Both the position numbers and the translations under genes were made by a program. This document shows, piece by piece, positions 175 to 11,643 of a stretch of DNA of 64,000 nt. The first letter of the stretch is position 1. Each line of letters starts with the position of its first letter. The notes beneath the pieces were generated by a model. The model saw nothing but the letters and a program-made list of their open reading frames with translations, had not been told where the DNA came from and made no database searches. This DNA is from an uncultured Pseudokineococcus sp. (GTDB lineage Bacteria; Actinomycetota; Actinomycetes; Actinomycetales; Quadrisphaeraceae), in NCBI RefSeq assembly GCF_947495735.1, contig NZ_CANMAA010000004.1, positions 1 through 64,000 on the forward strand, given 5' to 3'.

Positions 175-1032
175 TCAGGGCCCGAGGGGCGTCGGCACGG
201 GGCTGGCGTCGACGGCTCCGGTGAGCAGCAGCACCGCGAGGGCTGCGGCGAGCGCGAGCCGGTAGAGCACGAACGGGCGGAACGTGTGGGTGCTGATGTA
301 GCGCAGCAGCCAGGCGATGACCGCGAGGCCCACGACGAACGAGACCGCCGTGGCGAGGACGGTGGGACCCCACGACACCGACCCGGCCCCGCCCTCCCCC
401 AGCTCGGAGACGAGCTGGAAGCCGCCGGAGGCGACGACCGCCGGGATGGCCAGCAGGAACGCGTAGCGCGCGGCCGCCTCGCGGCGGTACCCGAGCAGGA
501 GGCCCGCGGTGATGGTCCCGCCCGAGCGCGAGACGCCCGGGATGAGGGCCAGCGCCTGGGCGAAGCCGTAGAGCAGGCCGTCGCGCCAGGAGAGGTCGGA
601 CAGGTCCTTGCGGGTGGTGGCGCGCGCGTCCGCCACGCCGAGCAGGACGCCGAAGACCGCCAGGGCGACCGCCGTGATCCACAGGTTCCGGAGCTGGGTC
701 TCGATGGCGTCCTGGAAGACGAGGCCGAGCACGCCGATCGGGACGGACCCGAGGATGACGAGCCACCCCATCCGGGCGTCCGGGTCGTCGCGCGGCGCGC
801 GCCCCACCAGCGACAGCGACCACTGCCGGACGATCCGCACGATGTCGCGCCAGAAGTAGAGGACCACGGCGGCCTCGGTGCCGAGCTGGATGATCGCGGT
901 GAACGCGGCCCCGGGGTCGCGGCCGTCGAACAGCAGCTGGCCGACGATGCTGACGTGCGCGCTCGAGGAGATCGGCAGGAACTCCGTGAGCCCCTGCACG
1001 AGACCGAGGACGAGCGCCTCGACCCAGCCCAT
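175..1032 (-). CDS. uppP: Undecaprenyl-diphosphatase UppP (BacA family)
   Basis: Integral membrane enzyme that removes a phosphate from undecaprenyl diphosphate, recycling the lipid carrier of peptidoglycan synthesis. It is 285 aa, the usual family length. Both signature regions are present: [10 protein letters not shown] at residues 17-26 and PGVSRSGGT at 165-173, which supply the catalytic Glu, His, Ser and Arg. Several hydrophobic segments follow to the C-terminus. The ATG overlaps the stop of the upstream LLM gene by one base (TGATG), so the two are translationally coupled. A strong hairpin follows the stop. Confidence 0.97.
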
Positions 1033-2147
1033 CAGGAGCCGGCCCCGCTGGCGTCGAGCGCCTCGGCGACCGTGCGCAGGACGGCGACGCGCTCGGCCTC
1101 GGTGCGCCCGTCGGGCAGCACCGACAGCGTCGTCACGCCCGCCTCGGCGTAGGCGACCAGGCGGTCGCGCACCGCGGCGGGCGGCCCGACGAGGCTCGTG
1201 GCCTCCACGAGGCCGCGCGGCACGGCGGAGGCCGCCTCGCGGTGGCGGCGGTCGAGGTACAGGTCCTGCACGAGGGCGGCCTCCTGCTCGTAGCCCAGCC
1301 GGACGGCCAGGGCGTTGTAGAAGTTCTGGTCGCGGCTGCCCATGCCCCCCACGTAGAGGGCGATCCGGGCCCTCAGCGCGTCGAGGCGACCCGCCTCGTC
1401 GTCCTCGCGGGCGGAGGTGCCGGCCGACGGCGCCGCGGCGACGGAGGCGACGACGTCGAGGGGCGCGCTCGGGCCCTGGGCGCGGGCGCGGCCGGCGCGC
1501 AGGTGGGACAGGCTCTCCCCCAGGTGCTCCGGCGAGACGAGGACGCCGAGCCAGCCGTCGGCGATCTCGCCCGCGAGCTCGAGGTTCCTCGGCCCGACGG
1601 CCGCGAGGTAGACCGGGACGTCCGCTCGCAGCGGCCGGGTGGACAGCCGCAGCGCGCGCCCGGGCCCGTCCGGCAGCGGCAGCCGCAGGTGGCGGCCGTC
1701 GTAGCGGACCTCCTCGCGGCGCAGGGCCATCCGCACGACGTCGACGTGCTCGCGGGTGCGGCGCAGCGGCTCGGCGAAGGGGACGCCGTGCCAGCCCTCG
1801 GAGACCTGCGGCCCCGAGACACCCAGGCCGAGGCGGAAGCGCCCGCCGGACAGGGCGTCCAGCGACGCGGCGGTCATGGCGGTCATGGCGGCGCTGCGGG
1901 CGGGGATCTGGAGCACGCCGCTCCCCACGTCGATCCGCGTGGTGGTCGCCGCGACGCACGACAGGACGGTGACGGCGTCGCTCCCGTAGGCCTCGGACGC
2001 CCAGGCGACGTCGTAGCCCAGGTGCTCGGCCTGCTGGGCCAGACGCACTCGCGCCCAGGGGTCCTCGTCCGTCCCGCGCCCTCCCGGGCCTGCCGTCCCC
2101 GAGGTCCCGGGAGCGGGTCCCTGACCGAGGTCGACACCCAGCTGCAC
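1032..2147 (-). CDS. LLM-class (luciferase-like) flavin/F420-dependent oxidoreductase
   Basis: A TIM-barrel oxidoreductase of the bacterial luciferase superfamily, 371 aa with the chosen start. The N-terminus has the family-like GVDLG strand, then the [12 protein letters not shown] helix and an [15 protein letters not shown] segment near residues 120-135. In actinomycetes most such proteins use coenzyme F420; the substrate cannot be read from sequence. I chose the GTG at 2147 because TACTGT stands 7 bases before it, as for a leaderless message. A longer reading from 2225 is open but would run through that promoter. It forms an operon with uppP and diverges from the aldo/keto reductase gene. 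Confidence 0.85.
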
Positions 2148-2160
2148 GAACCCGACAGTA
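2148..2160 (-). promoter_or_regulatory. Leaderless promoter of the LLM gene
   Basis: On the minus strand TACTGT (2160-2155) is followed by 7 bases and then the GTG. This places transcription start at or next to the start codon. No ribosome binding site is visible. Confidence 0.55.
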
Positions 2161-2333
2161 GCGACCGCAGGGCCTGCGACGAGCCGCACCACGGCGGCCG
2201 CGGCACGTCGCGCCCCCACGTCCACCCGTCCGCCCGCGCCGGCCGGCAGGCGCCCCCTGCCGCCCGTCCCGGCGGCGGCCGACCACCTCGCGGGTGCAGG
2301 GGCCGCTGGTGCAGGGGCTCTCGGGGCGGTGGC

Positions 2334-2347
2334 TACGCTCGACCCCC
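2334..2347 (+). promoter_or_regulatory. Leaderless promoter of the aldo/keto reductase gene
   Basis: TACGCT at 2334-2339 is followed by 8 bases and then the ATG at 2348. There is no purine-rich ribosome binding site between them. Confidence 0.55.
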
Positions 2348-3307
2348 ATGGAGACCCGGCGCGTGGGACGGTCCGGTCTGCGGGTCTCCCGGTTCGGGCT
2401 CGGCACCCTGACGTGGGGTCGGGACACCGACGAGCACGAGGCCTCGGAGCAGCTGCGCGACTTCGCCGACGCGGGCGGGACCCTGGTCAGCTCGGCCGCC
2501 TCCGGCACCGGGGAGGCCGAGGAGCTGCTCGGCGCGCTGCTGCACGACGTCGTCCCCCGCCGGGACCTGGTGCTCGCCCTGCGCGTGGGCGCCCGCGGTG
2601 CGGGCCGCGAGCGCCGCGCCGACGGCTCGCGGCGGGCGCTGCTCGCCGACCTGGACGCCTCGCTGGCGCGGCTGCGCACCGACCACGTGGACCTGCTGCT
2701 GCTGGAGGGCTCCGGCTCCGCGCCGGTCGAGGAGTCGCTGTCGGCGCTCGAGGACGCCCAGCGCTCCGGCCGCGCCCGCTACGCGGGCCTGGCCGAGCAC
2801 GGCGCCTGGCAGGCGGCCCGCGCCGCCTCGCTGGCGTCGACGCCGCTCGTGGCGGTGGAGGCGGAGCACTCGCTCGTGGCGCGCTGGGCCGACGTCGACC
2901 TGCGCGAGGCGGCGGCGGCCACCGGGCTCGGGCTGCTCGCGCGCAGTCCGCTGGGCGGCGGCGTGCTCACGGGCAAGTACCGCCACGCGCTGCCGGCGGA
3001 CTCCCGCGCGGCCTCGCCGCACCTCGTCCACGTGGTGGAGCCGCACCTGGACCCCTCGGCGCGCGGCGTCGTCGAGGCGGTCTGCACCGCCGCCGACGGG
3101 CTGGAGCGCTCCCCGCTGGAGGTGGCCCTCGCGTGGGCGGCCGACGGCCCCGGCGTGGCCAGCGCGGTCACCGGCGCTCGCACGGCGGCGCAGCTGCGGG
3201 CCGCCCTCGCCGGGGACGACCTGCGCCTGCCGGGGCAGATCCGCGCTGCGCTGGACGAGGTCTCGGCGGGCCGCACGGCCGTCGGCCGTCCCGTCGTCCG
3301 CGGCTAG
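2348..3307 (+). CDS. Aldo/keto reductase-fold protein lacking the catalytic tetrad
   Basis: 319 aa, AKR fold over its whole length. It has the family N-terminus ([15 protein letters not shown]), and the C-terminal NADP(H)-binding features [12 protein letters not shown] and TGARTAAQL look intact. The four catalytic positions do not: aligned by eye with typical AKRs, Asp reads Ser48, Tyr reads Gly53, Lys reads Arg79 and His reads Glu120. Reading frame and flanking motifs are unbroken, so this is not a frameshift. It probably binds a nucleotide without normal AKR chemistry, perhaps as a sensor or scaffold (inference). The ATG at 2348 is supported by the leaderless promoter. Confidence 0.85.
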
Positions 3308-3367
3308 GTCGCGCCCGGCCGTCGTCCGCGGTCGCCCGAGACCGGACCGGACGTCGCCCGCCCGGGC

Positions 3368-3712
3368 TCAGAGGCGGGGGCGGGTGTCGTCCTCGTCCTC
3401 GTCCTCGTCGTCGTCCGAGTCGTCGTCGTCCGAGTCGTCGTCGTCCGAGTCGTCGTCGTCCGAGTCGTCGTCGTCGTCCTCGTCGTCCGAGTCGTCGTCG
3501 TCCTCGTCGGAGTCGTCGAACAGCACGAAGGGCGTGACCTCGTCGAAGACGTCGTAGAGCGCCTCGTCGTAGACCTCGAAGGCGTCCGCGAGGGACTGGT
3601 AGGCGTCCTTGACCACGCGGTCGGTCTCGGAGCGACGTCGCTCGACGGCGTCGAGGTGCGCCTCGAGCGCCCCGACGAGACGTGCCAGGGCCGCGCGGGG
3701 CTCGGTGCTCAT
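3368..3712 (-). CDS. Small conserved protein with a Ser-Asp repeat tail
   Basis: 114 aa, no recognised enzyme domain. Residues 1-65 look like a helical domain (A-L-A-R-L-V-G-A-L-E-A-H-L, then V-K-D-A-Y-Q-S-L-A-D-A-F-E-V-Y-D-E-A-L-Y-D) of a type I recall as an uncharacterised actinobacterial family. Residues 66-110 are almost all Asp, Ser and Glu in S-D-D-D-D units coded by 15-bp direct repeats. The protein is very acidic and soluble, with no signal peptide. The start ATG is fixed by TACGGT 6 bases upstream. It converges with the aldo/keto reductase gene. Confidence 0.75.
   Translation of the reverse strand: MSTEPRAALARLVGALEAHLDAVERRRSETDRVVKDAYQSLADAFEVYDEALYDVFDEVTPFVLFDDSDEDDDDSDDEDDDDDSDDDDSDDDDSDDDDSDDDEDEDEDDTRPRL
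3418..3475 (-). repeat. 15-bp tandem repeat coding the acidic tail
   Basis: Near-perfect 15-bp units (gtcgtcgtccgagtc on the plus strand) repeat about four times in frame and code Ser-Asp-Asp-Asp-Asp. A shorter imperfect stretch continues to about 3510. Confidence 0.85.
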
Positions 3713-3724
3713 GGGAGGACCGTA
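3713..3724 (-). promoter_or_regulatory. Leaderless promoter of the acidic-tail gene
   Basis: Minus-strand TACGGT followed by CCTCCC and the ATG at 3712. The same arrangement (CTACGGTCC, then CCCATG) occurs in front of glgA. Confidence 0.55.
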
Positions 3725-3904
3725 GCCGCGCGACCGGGTGCGGGGCGACGGCTGGGCGAGGCGCTGGTCCCGCGCTCCCCGACCCCCTGCGGCGAGGCCC
3801 TCCCGGGGTCGGGCGGGCGCGGGCGCGCAGTGGTGGTACGACGCGGCGCGGGCCCGGCCCGCGCACCCCCGCGCGGCGCGCGCGTCGTGGCACGATGGCG
3901 CGCG

Positions 3905-4198
3905 ATGGACGCCAGCCGACGCACCCCGCGAGGCGGGGACCAGCCCTCCGAGCGGCCCACCCACGAGGTCGCCGACCGTCGCGAGGCCGGCGCCGGGCCC
4001 GAGCGGCTCCGGGCCTCCTCCTACGAGTACCGCGAGGTGGTCCTGCCCCGGGGCACGTCCCGGGGCCAGGCCCGCGCGCTCCTCACCGAGGAGGCCGAGT
4101 ACGGCAAGTGGGAGCTCGCCGGGGTGCGCCTGTACATGGGCGGCCTGCGACGGGTGGTGCTGCGCCGCCGCATCATCCGCATGCAGCGGACGGCCTAG
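3905..4198 (+). CDS. DUF5703 family protein
   Basis: 97 aa. The C-terminal 60 residues carry the DUF5703 pattern: Y-E-Y near residue 41, LPRGTSRGQARALLTEEAE at 47-65, W-E-L, RLYMGG and a basic end RRVVLRRRIIR. The function of the family is unknown. The N-terminal 38 residues are polar and probably disordered. Only one reasonable ATG (3905) precedes the domain; there is no strong ribosome binding site. The neighbours LLM oxidoreductase, aldo/keto reductase and M20 hydrolase form a grouping I recall from other actinomycetes, but it gives no functional clue. Confidence 0.85.
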   Translation: MDASRRTPRGGDQPSERPTHEVADRREAGAGPERLRASSYEYREVVLPRGTSRGQARALLTEEAEYGKWELAGVRLYMGGLRRVVLRRRIIRMQRTA

Positions 4199-4365
4199 GG
4201 CCCCGAGCGCGCCCCGCACGTCGGTGCCGGACCGCCCCCCGACGACGGTCCCCCTCGCGCGTCGACGCCGAGGTGCCACCCGGTGGCGCCCCTGCCGGTA
4301 CCTCGACGTCGTGAGGCCACCTGCTGGCGCCCCCTCGACGTCGAGCTGCCGCACGGGGGCGCCGG

Positions 4366-4413: not shown

Positions 4414-5793
4414 TCAGCAGGTGCGCAGGAGCCGGTCCAGCACGCGCGTGCCGAAGCGCAGCGCCTCGGTGGGGACGCGCTCGTCGACGCCGTGGAACAT
4501 GCCCGCGAAGTCGAGCTCGGGCGGCAGCTGCAGCGGGGCGAAGCCGAAGCCGCGGATGCCGAGGCGAGCCAGCGCCTTGTTGTCGGTGCCGCCGGACAGG
4601 CAGTACGGCAGGACCCGGGCTCCCGGGTCCTCGGCCAGCAGCGCAGCCACCATGGCGTCCGGCAGGGCGCCCTCGAGGTCGGTCTCGAGCGCGGTGTCGG
4701 CGTGGACGACCTCGACGTCGACGCCCGGGCCGGCGAGCTCGCGCACGACCTCCAGCACGTGCTCGCCCTGGCCGGGCAGCGTGCGGCAGTCGACGAGCGC
4801 CGTCGCGGTGCCCGGGATGACGTTGTGCTTGTAGCCGGCCTCGAGCTGCGTGGGGTTGGACGTGTTGCGCAGCGTCGCCCCCACCCAGTTCGCCGTGGTG
4901 CCGAGGACCTCGGTGAGCGCGCCGAAGTCCTCGGGGTCCAGGGGCTCGCCGGTGACGTCCTGCACGCCCTCGAGGAAGGCGCGGACGGTCGGGCGCAGCT
5001 CCAGCGGCCAGCGGTGGGCGCCGATCCGCGCCACCGCCCCCGCTAGCCGCGTGACGGCGTTGTCGTCGTTGACCTGGCTCCCGTGCCCGGCCCGGCCGTG
5101 CGCCACGAGCCGGACCCACGCGATGCCCTTCTCGGCCGTCTGCAGGAGGTAGCAGCGCTGCCCGGCGATGTCGAGGGAGAAGCCGCCCACCTCGCTGATG
5201 GCCTCGGTGGCGCCCTCGAAGAGGTCCGGGCGGGTCTCCACGAGGAAGCCGGCGCCCTTGGCGCTGCCGGCCTCCTCGTCGGCGGTGAAGGCCACGACCA
5301 GGTCGCGCGGGGGCGTGCGGCCCTCCCTGGTCATCTGCCGGACGACGGACAGGATCATCGCGTCCATGCCCTTCATGTCCACGGCGCCGCGGCCCCACAG
5401 GCAGCCGTCGCGGACCTCCCCGGCGAAGGGGTCCACGCTCCAGTCCGCGGCGCGCGCCGGGACGACGTCGAGGTGGCCGTGCACGACCAGGGCGCCGCGG
5501 CTGCGGTCCTGCCCGGGGATGCGCAGGACGACGCTCGCGCGTCCCGGGTCGCTCTCGAGCAGCTCGGCGGACAGGCCCACCTCGTCGAGCAGGCCCATGA
5601 CGTGCTCCGCCGCGGCCCGCTCCCCCGGCCCGCTGCCGTCGCCGTAGTTCGACGTGTCGATGCGGATGAGGTCGCGGGCGATCTCGACGACCTCCTCCGC
5701 GGCCGGGGGGACGGCCCCGCCCGCGGCCCGGCCCGCGGGCTGCTGGTCGGTCGCCTGCTGGTCCGCCTGCTGCTGGTCCGTCGTCTGGGGCAT
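4414..5793 (-). CDS. M20 family metallo-hydrolase (peptidase/deacylase)
   Basis: 459 aa, cytoplasmic M20 dizinc enzyme that cleaves an amide or peptide bond. Metal and catalytic motifs are complete: HGHLDVVPA (His, Asp), WGRGAVDMKGM (bridging Asp), FTADEEAGS (catalytic Glu-Glu) and the C-terminal SGGTDNKAL region. A dimerisation lid lies between about residues 200 and 320. Specificity (dipeptidase, acetylornithine or succinyl-diaminopimelate deacylase) cannot be told. Residues 4-20 are a Gln-rich low-complexity leader. The ATG at 5793 is preferred because TAGCGT lies 7 bases upstream and the earlier GTG at 5802 would fall inside that hexamer. Confidence 0.9.
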   Translation of the reverse strand: MPQTTDQQQADQQATDQQPAGRAAGGAVPPAAEEVVEIARDLIRIDTSNYGDGSGPGERAAAEHVMGLLDEVGLSAELLESDPGRASVVLRIPGQDRSRGALVVHGHLDVVPARAADWSVDPFAGEVRDGCLWGRGAVDMKGMDAMILSVVRQMTREGRTPPRDLVVAFTADEEAGSAKGAGFLVETRPDLFEGATEAISEVGGFSLDIAGQRCYLLQTAEKGIAWVRLVAHGRAGHGSQVNDDNAVTRLAGAVARIGAHRWPLELRPTVRAFLEGVQDVTGEPLDPEDFGALTEVLGTTANWVGATLRNTSNPTQLEAGYKHNVIPGTATALVDCRTLPGQGEHVLEVVRELAGPGVDVEVVHADTALETDLEGALPDAMVAALLAEDPGARVLPYCLSGGTDNKALARLGIRGFGFAPLQLPPELDFAGMFHGVDERVPTEALRFGTRVLDRLLRTC

Positions 5794-5806
5794 GTCTCGC
5801 ACGCTA
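5794..5806 (-). promoter_or_regulatory. Leaderless promoter of the M20 gene
   Basis: Minus-strand TAGCGT (5806-5801), 7 bases, then ATG at 5793. No ribosome binding site is present. Confidence 0.55.
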
Positions 5807-5946: not shown

Positions 5947-6034
5947 GTCCGGGTGGCGGAATGGCAGACGCGCTAGCTTGAGGTGCTAGTGCCCTTTATC
6001 GGGCGTGGGGGTTCAAGTCCCCCTCCGGACACCA
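5947..6034 (+). tRNA. tRNA-Leu (anticodon GAG)
   Basis: Complete class II tRNA read by folding. The acceptor stem GTCCGGG pairs with TCCGGAC (one G-U). The anticodon stem CTAGC/GCTAG encloses TTGAGGT, with anticodon GAG at 5980-5982, reading CUC/CUU. The long variable arm is GCCC/GGGC, and the T arm is GGGGG-TTCAAGT-CCCCC. The discriminator is A and CCA is encoded (6032-6034). No intron. Confidence 0.97.
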
Positions 6035-7873: not shown

Positions 7874-10750
<2,877 letters not shown>

Positions 10751-10813
10751 CCCCGGCGCGCCCGGCCCGCGGCCGCCCTGCCCGCACTCTGCCGCCGCAC
10801 CGCCGTCCAGCAC

Positions 10814-10933
10814 AGGCCCTTCCTGCACGGGCCCTTCCTGCACGGGCCCTTCCTGCACGGGCCCTTCCCGCACGGGCCCTTCCCGCACGGGCCCTTCCCG
10901 CACGGGCCCTTCCCGCACGGGCCCTTCCCGCAC
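10814..10933. repeat. 15-bp tandem repeat array, eight units
   Basis: Eight contiguous 15-bp units GGGCCCTTCCYGCAC with the first base changed in unit 1. Units 1-3 read CTGCAC and units 4-8 CCGCAC. Each unit contains the palindrome GGGCCC, so the array can form many alternative stems. It lies 63 bases past the ppc stop. All six frames stay open across it, which explains spurious ORFs. Confidence 0.95.
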
Positions 10934-11016
10934 TCTGTCGGCACACTGCCGTCAGGCGAGGCCCGTGGCGGCGAAGTGCCGACAGGGTGCGGGCTGGCGC
11001 GGACGGGGGGATCGAC

Positions 11017-11643
11017 GTGGTGCGGGACGACGGGGGGCGGGACGACGGGGCGCGGGACGACGGGGCGCGGGACGACGGGGCGCGGGACGACGGGGCGCGG
11101 GACGCGCGGACGGCGCTCGCCCGCGTCCGCACGCCCGAGGACGCCCTGGCGCTCTTCGACGCGCTGCCCGCCGTGGAGGTCGATGACGTGCTCGGCTCCT
11201 GGTGCGGGGCGACCGTGGGGACCGGCCACCCCCTCGACGGGCTGCTGGAGCTCTACGGCTGGCACGGCAAGCGCTTCGACAGCGCCGACGTCGTGCACCC
11301 GCTGGTCTTCGCCGACGCCCGCGGGCGCTTCGCCGTCGACCCCGCCCTGGTCCCGCTGCGCCTGCTGGTCCGCTTGAGCGGGCCGCTGCACGACGAGCGG
11401 GTGGCCGGGGTGCTGCGCGGGGCGCGGAGGCTGCGCGCCACGAGGAGGCCGAGGGCGCGGCTGCGCACCGTCCGCCACCGCGGCGTCGAGACCGCGACGA
11501 TGACCTACGACGCCCTGGCCGTCGACGACCACTTCCGCGCGCTCGGCGACGACGCGCTCCTGGGGGTGATGGACGCGCGCGGCCTGGACAGGCCCTTCGT
11601 CTTCTCGCTGCACCGGGAGAGCGGTGGCGCCCCGCAGGACTGA
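11017..11643 (+). CDS. GXWXG / DUF4334 domain protein
   Basis: 208 aa. Residues about 45-105 hold the GXWXG domain (G-S-W-C-G, TGHPLDGLLE, GWHGKRFDSADVVHPLVF). Residues about 140-205 hold DUF4334 (RGVETATMTYDALAVDDHF, then MDARGLDRPFVFSLHRE). The function of this domain pair is not established. The N-terminus is five imperfect R-D-D-G-A repeats coded by 15-bp units. I chose GTG 11017 because a GGGGGG stretch lies about 6 bases before it; GTG 11020 or 10987, or a start after the repeats, cannot be excluded. Confidence 0.75.
   Translation: MVRDDGGRDDGARDDGARDDGARDDGARDARTALARVRTPEDALALFDALPAVEVDDVLGSWCGATVGTGHPLDGLLELYGWHGKRFDSADVVHPLVFADARGRFAVDPALVPLRLLVRLSGPLHDERVAGVLRGARRLRATRRPRARLRTVRHRGVETATMTYDALAVDDHFRALGDDALLGVMDARGLDRPFVFSLHRESGGAPQD
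11023..11105 (+). repeat. 15-bp in-frame tandem repeat
   Basis: About five units of cgggacgacggggcg, the first diverged, coding Arg-Asp-Asp-Gly-Ala at the N-terminus of the GXWXG protein. It has the same period as the array 90 bases upstream, but an unrelated sequence. Confidence 0.85.

Follow-up and report, generated by a model that had tools for sequence, protein, structure and literature searches.

The aldo/keto reductases (AKRs) form a large superfamily, many members of which are annotated in genomes as reductases without test. In Kv-beta (AKR6A) the AKR fold serves as a regulatory subunit, which keeps Asp-Tyr-Lys and binds NADPH. The nearest solved structures, by sequence and by fold, to the protein described here are AKRs of the deoxynivalenol pathway (7utf and DepB, 8hwn), which differ from it in that Asp, Tyr, Lys and His are all kept in the alignment. 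A further close structure is that of AKRtyl (AKR12D1; 8jwk/8jwn), a tylosin reductase in which, according to excerpts of its description, the nicotinamide stacks on Trp214, the carboxamide touches Ser160, Asn161 and Gln186, the Y53F mutant is inactive and H130A suffers a 50-fold loss (PMC10923870). Excerpts of a second study report mere trace reduction by the D51N, K86M and H119F variants of codeinone reductase, and describe DRR, the P450-fused AKR domain of plant reticuline epimerase, which reduces imines with its Tyr kept (PMC8524200). A search of a partial literature collection on pseudoenzymes and inactive AKRs found no published AKR without all four tetrad residues.

We analyzed a 64,000-nucleotide stretch of DNA (the window) from an uncultured Pseudokineococcus sp., which encodes an AKR that resembles AKRtyl in its fold, in about 33% identity, in its cofactor-loop region and in having alignable contact positions, but in which the counterpart of Tyr53 is deleted and those of His130, Ser160, Asn161, Gln186 and Trp214 are replaced (AKRtyl residues from excerpts of PMC10923870). 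With DRR it shares a degenerate tetrad (Lys to Met and His to Pro in DRR), although the latter is a plant protein, fused to a P450, that keeps its Tyr and is active in imine reduction (excerpts of PMC8524200). We propose that the window protein is probably a pseudo-AKR that has lost its reaction centre, has kept the ADP end of its cofactor cleft and is selected for a non-redox role, of which that of a scaffold or ligand sensor would be the likeliest.

The gene and its conserved neighbourhood

The gene lies in the following configuration:

175..1032, minus strand: UppP, undecaprenyl-diphosphatase (NCBIfam NF001392)
1032..2225, minus strand: F420-type LLM oxidoreductase, the divergent neighbour, start codon uncertain (TIGR03559)
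2334..2339, plus strand: TACGCT, a -10-like box of leaderless type, 8 nt upstream of the ATG (TANNNT survey)
2348..3307, plus strand: putative pseudo-AKR gene, 319 aa, PF00248 (ORF, Pfam search, AlphaFold2 model)
3368..3712, minus strand: acidic repeat-tailed protein, without a Pfam or NCBIfam match, matched in 49 of 110 family loci
3905..4198, plus strand: DUF5703 protein (PF18963, E 2.8e-23)
4414..5802, minus strand: M20 peptidase (NF005913)

An unbroken frame of 319 codons plus stop runs from the ATG at 2348 to the TAG ending at 3307, and its product matches the Pfam Aldo_ket_red profile (PF00248) with an E-value of 1.3e-42. The AlphaFold2 model, built from a 52-sequence alignment (pLDDT 86.5, pTM 0.86), predicts a full AKR fold, the (beta/alpha)8 barrel, with the whole chain matched to solved AKRs. 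Its top PDB match is 7utf_C (Z 37.5, rmsd 2.5 over 291 residues; VIA-align), and Kv-beta (1zsx) is comparably close (Z 37.1), although, unlike for Kv-beta, the scanned neighbours include no evident ion channel. The nearest solved AKRs to the protein (7utf; AKRtyl, 8jwk and 8xr2; DepB, 8hwn) are about 29-34% identical to it, and the model of a relative with the Asp-Tyr-Lys-His tetrad reaches a Z of 41.3. The frame is intact in all four genomes of the genus examined, one copy ending at a contig edge, and the locus L038, 83% identical in the best segment, carries the same AKR sequence as one of these genomes (G003). No second copy of the family was found in the source genome (96.7% complete), in which the next-best AKR is only 39% identical; the genome has seven other AKR loci, and the six of them that were aligned serve as a control, five reading Asp-Tyr-Lys-His and one Glu-Tyr-Lys-His. 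Family members that bear Asp-Tyr-Lys are 41-62% identical to the window protein (median 55%), the closest intact orthologues standing at 61-62%.

The AKR belongs to a conserved actinobacterial block comprising UppP, the F420-type oxidoreductase, the AKR, the acidic protein, DUF5703 and M20. DUF5703 or M20 accompanies the AKR in 102 of 110 family loci, as both do in the window; the individual counts, in loci whose flanks are often cut, are 66 for DUF5703, 79 for M20, 50 for UppP, 49 for the acidic protein and 44 for LLM. In one genome of the genus (G002; L009/L119) there is no LLM match between the AKR and UppP, and the AKR is retained. The acidic protein has a Ser-Asp-rich repeat tail encoded by a 15-bp tandem unit (3386-3517); 15-bp tandem arrays also occur at 10806-10933 and 11008-11104 (97% and 95% matching), just past a large ORF that ends at 10750. 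A tRNA-Leu (gag) at 5947-6034 adjoins the M20 gene. Our search for literature on DUF5703, in a partial collection, found no paper.

Catalytic and cofactor-binding residues

The positions that bear on catalysis and cofactor binding, all on the plus strand, are:

2489..2491, plus strand: Ser48 codon, formerly the catalytic Asp (outside the tetrad-less groups, 236 of 239 relatives have Asp)
2501..2506, plus strand: Ser52-Gly53 codons, between which the catalytic Tyr is deleted in the alignment (Tyr in 230 of 239 relatives)
2582..2584, plus strand: Arg79 codon, formerly the catalytic Lys (Lys in 226 of 239 relatives)
2705..2707, plus strand: Glu120 codon, formerly the catalytic His, aligned to AKRtyl His130 (His in 118 and Gln in 85 of 239 relatives)
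2792..2797, plus strand: Ala149-Glu150, aligned to the carboxamide contacts Ser160-Asn161 of AKRtyl (excerpts of PMC10923870)
2858..2860, plus strand: Glu171, aligned to AKRtyl Gln186 (Glu in 63 of 193 intact relatives too)
2942..2944, plus strand: Arg199, aligned to AKRtyl Trp214, on which the nicotinamide stacks (excerpts of PMC10923870)
2414..2437, plus strand: kept family motif WGRDTDEH, residues 23-30, invariant in the 52-sequence alignment
2945..2980, plus strand: kept cofactor-loop motif [12 protein letters not shown], in which Arg204 (to Gly) is the only strongly conserved position altered
3002..3007, plus strand: Ser219-Arg220, also in the cofactor loop and kept (all 193 intact relatives, four of four genus members)
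3173..3196, plus strand: kept GARTAAQL, presumably at the adenosine 2′-phosphate end, conserved relative to intact relatives

The first-pass annotation had read this protein as an AKR with all four catalytic residues replaced, the tetrad having become Ser48-Gly53-Arg79-Glu120. Alignments to solved AKRs and to 282 unique sequences of the family show that it indeed lacks the Asp-Tyr-Lys-His tetrad of the superfamily, and the reading stands for Asp, Lys and His (Ser48, Arg79 and Glu120); the Tyr, however, is deleted, leaving a one-residue gap, and Gly53, which occupies the next column, ancestrally Gly or Ala, is not its replacement. As all four residues are likewise missing in the three other examined genomes of the genus, a frame slip or sequencing error is ruled out. 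So is a Tyr or Lys supplied from elsewhere in the site, because each of the four genus proteins (one cut at a contig end) has only two Tyr and one Lys in total, and these occupy ancestral, non-tetrad positions at which the residue is shared with 214-219 of the 219 relatives that keep Asp-Tyr-Lys. His174 and His233 stand where Tyr is conserved, outside the tetrad columns.

No new conserved site has formed at residues 48 and 120: the former is Ser in three members of the genus and Glu in one, and at the latter two members have Glu and the other two Gly. The combination of Ser and Arg in the Asp and Lys columns is seen only in this genus, one of whose four genomes reads Glu-gap-Arg-Glu. The spot of the former His is loosely held, as a low-complexity insert of 17-19 aa directly follows it in two genomes (G001, L034, and G003, L012). 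A metal site formed by Glu120, Glu150 and Glu171 was also considered and discarded, these residues not being kept across the four members and hence no shared feature.

Much of the nicotinamide pocket, too, is gone, whereas the residues of the adenosine-phosphate end are retained. The Ser, Asn and Trp columns of the pocket are altered in all four genus members; that of Gln186 is uninformative, with Glu in 63 of 193 intact relatives and Gln in one of the four members. Kept at the ADP end are Thr20, Trp23, Ser200, Pro201, Leu202, Lys210, Ser219, Arg220, Gly276, Arg278 and Gln282, whose roles we assume by assignment from Kv-beta and other AKRs, taking GARTAAQL to lie at the adenosine 2′-phosphate end of the cofactor site. 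With the ADP half of the cleft kept, the protein may still bind NADP(H) or some similar nucleotide to a degree, though these residues may be merely structural; given that the nicotinamide contacts are lost as well, it is doubtful that NADPH binds in full.

The losses are concentrated at the site. Among 239 relatives, namely those outside the three tetrad-less groups, 80 columns are conserved at 90% or more, and seven of these are altered in all four genus members; with the site columns picked from knowledge of AKRs, the catalytic and nicotinamide columns account for four of four and all others for three of 76 (Fisher p 2e-5). At thresholds of 80% and 70% the corresponding figures are five of five against 11 of 122, and six of six against 19 of 148. 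The set of 193 intact relatives was itself selected by Asp-Tyr-Lys, and the comparison with the 239 is the fairer one.

Tetrad-less relatives and the number of losses

Among the 282 unique sequences, Asp-Tyr-Lys-His occurs in 117 and Asp-Tyr-Lys-Gln in 76, Asp-Tyr-Lys being kept in 219 and His being the tetrad residue lost most often; as the family was sampled by similarity to the window protein, these counts are not natural frequencies. Orthologues with Asp-Tyr-Lys-His include those of Nocardioides soli (L115) and of Streptomyces loci such as L054. A partial loss, Asp-Tyr-Thr-Pro, is seen in another genus of the window's own family. An order-wide search at 1e-55 gave a match in 160 of 297 genomes, with another family of the order (f7) falling below that threshold; 98 further stretches were taken from the order-wide matches, and part of the listed matches was read.

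Two further lineages lack the tetrad. In f7 the AKR gene is present in 58 of 60 genomes examined, and of the 37 gene-bearing genomes read, 35 are tetrad-less (g10 and g97) and two bear Asp-Tyr-Lys-Glu (g96 and g98). In the 35, Glu stands in the Asp column, Arg in the Lys column and Asp or Glu in the His column. One of them has Tyr in the Tyr column and the other 34 have Ser, Phe, Ala, Thr or Cys, the residue there being alignment-dependent (Ala or Gly in one alignment, mostly Ser or Phe in another). UppP, the AKR and the acidic gene occur together in the f7 stretches examined, except for one (L332) without a UppP match. The block AKRs of the f7 genera g96 and g98 (L330 and L332) have Asp-Tyr-Lys-Glu, like the steroid 5-beta-reductase AKR1D1 as excerpted in PMC8524200. 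The second lineage is g71 (family f3), which reads Glu-His-Arg-Glu in four of four genomes seen, and in which the other block genes were not found within 11 kb of the AKR. Arg at the Lys column occurs in all three tetrad-less lineages, and nothing else is common to them. Omega in the two other lineages ranges over 0.046-0.247, and in most f7 pairs the AKR outpaces UppP and M20 (e.g., 0.188 versus 0.095 and 0.077, or 0.139 versus 0.015 and 0.008).

The tetrad loss is lineage-specific, because most relatives (219 of 282) keep Asp-Tyr-Lys. The suggestion of the first-pass annotation that the substitutions are conserved beside DUF5703 is thus not supported, since these relatives keep the residues though 102 of 110 loci are near DUF5703 or M20; the tetrad-less g71, lacking a block gene within 11 kb, further counters such a link.

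Three separate losses, the number that parsimony counts, would be the best reading of the alignments and trees, though not a proven one. The competing possibility, which we regard as rather unlikely, is that there were fewer, gene exchange or shared ancestry linking two or all of the tetrad-less lineages. In AU tests on the AKR tree, neither joining the genus with g71 (p 0.285) nor with f7 (p 0.152) is rejected, and in a coarser 96-row tree the topology joining it with g71 scores above the free one (p 0.917). Moreover, the AKR of the genus does not group with those of its own family, a join of the two being mildly rejected (p-AU 0.037); this separation may be due either to a long stem or to an old replacement in place. 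Against such links, and besides the parsimony count, the tetrad-less f7 clade is nested beside genera with Asp-Tyr-Lys-Glu (support 98/96 in a 63-row tree), and the window protein shares 32-45% identity with the 35 sequences from f7, as opposed to up to 62% with Asp-Tyr-Lys relatives. The flanking genes speak likewise: in a tree of UppP and M20 the genus groups (85/96) with four relatives, of which two have Asp-Tyr-Lys-His and two Asp-Tyr-Thr-Pro. Joining it with f7 on these genes is again not rejected (p 0.061).

Selection, promoter and candidate roles

The earlier proposal that the gene has its own promoter is supported by the TACGCT box, since 99 of 108 family members have a promoter-like TANNNT that starts 12-14 nt upstream of the start codon; farther upstream, thirteen four-position bins hold 0-4 such motifs each. 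A -10-like box this close to the start resembles the arrangement of actinobacterial genes with leaderless transcripts. Similar boxes are present upstream of the f7 AKR genes that were inspected, and the orthologous actinobacterial AKRs of the block, most of which keep Asp-Tyr-Lys, share both locus and promoter element with the window gene. Scans of 2100-4300 for sigma-70 promoters (TTGACA/TATAAT) and for terminators gave no match.

The AKR is under purifying selection comparable to that on UppP, M20 and LLM. Within the genus, five of the six pairs give it an NG86 omega of 0.146-0.258, and the closest pair (G001-G003), which has diverged little, gives 0.338; 60-fold resampling of three AKR pairs gave upper limits of 0.201-0.336. 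As NG86 probably underestimates dS at such G+C, the comparison with the neighbours in the same genomes outweighs the absolute values: omega is 0.149-0.274 for UppP, 0.178-0.272 for M20 and 0.179-0.218 for LLM, with 0.229-0.700 for DUF5703 and 0.450-0.556 for the acidic protein. Together with the open frames in the genus, this agrees with the first-pass view of a gene selected rather than decayed; and with its required catalytic residues missing, its nucleotide-end residues kept and purifying selection in force, the protein does look like the pseudoenzyme it had been suggested to be.

Hence, we favor a scenario in which the barrel and the adenosine-phosphate part of the cofactor cleft were retained while Asp, Tyr, Lys and His, and Ser, Asn and Trp of the nicotinamide pocket, were lost. 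The canonical AKR reaction should then no longer run, because the Tyr acid, the Lys/Asp pair and the nicotinamide pocket are all missing; by the precedent of DRR, a degenerate tetrad alone would be no proof of inactivity, and some residual redox chemistry is possible. Given selection like that on UppP, M20 and LLM, the window AKR must therefore do something else, most likely as an (oligomeric) scaffold or a ligand sensor. That the gene is kept with its reaction centre lost suggests that the intact relatives already have a second role, inherited by the pseudo-forms, and such a function in active relatives would explain the repeated loss of the site.

Another reading of the protein, unlikely in our estimate, is that of a relaxed gene heading for loss, in which the enzyme became dispensable in the genus and the frame is as yet unbroken. 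This picture fits the variation that the genus shows at two former tetrad positions out of four, the inserts that two genomes carry at the His site, the wide loss of His across the family (kept in 118 of 239) and the omega of the closest pair. It is opposed by the neighbour-like omega, by the mere seven of 80 strongly conserved columns altered in all four members, by four copies free of stop codons (one cut by a contig end) and by f7, in which the gene persists in 58 of 60 genomes with 35 of the 37 read tetrad-less.

Less credible still is a new, non-redox catalytic site built at the vacated barrel mouth from the charged residues Arg79, Glu120, Glu150 and Arg199, with Glu171. In the model these residues lie at or near the strand ends; Arg79, Ala149, Glu150 and Arg199 are common to the four members, and the Arg at the Lys position recurs in all three lineages. 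However, neither Glu120 nor Glu171 is present in every member, Glu171 is no novelty, being found in 63 of 193 intact relatives, and beyond Arg79 nothing is common to the three lineages. Continued hydride transfer, either to an imine or double-bond substrate for which a Tyr acid is dispensable or with Glu120 acting as the acid, is very improbable: DRR does reduce C=N bonds with Lys and His replaced by Met and Pro, AKR1D1 does function with Glu at the His place (both from excerpts of PMC8524200) and sister genera of another tetrad-less lineage do bear Asp-Tyr-Lys-Glu, but DRR keeps its Tyr and AKR1D1 uses its own as general acid (same excerpts), while the window AKR has neither the tetrad Tyr nor the nicotinamide contacts and the Y53F mutant of AKRtyl is dead (excerpts of PMC10923870).

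If the protein is a pseudo-AKR as we favor, a selected AKR without its whole reaction centre would point to a possible second role separable from the chemistry, and the label "aldo/keto reductase" may be wrong for the pseudo-forms. These and their intact orthologues at one locus make natural pairs for finding that role. On a broader and more speculative reading, which we hold to be possible though on the doubtful side, the block AKR would have a hidden non-enzymatic function in many actinobacteria, its centre having been lost at least three times with the ADP end kept, always with Arg for Lys, two lineages and one of the four genus genomes showing Glu-x-Arg-Glu/Asp. It would then be a matter of nucleotide-reading pseudo-reductases that act beside UppP, of cell-wall lipid recycling, and in a relative near MshC, of mycothiol synthesis. 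The relative in question is an Occultella (L041), in which the gene for the mycothiol ligase MshC is found on the far side of UppP.
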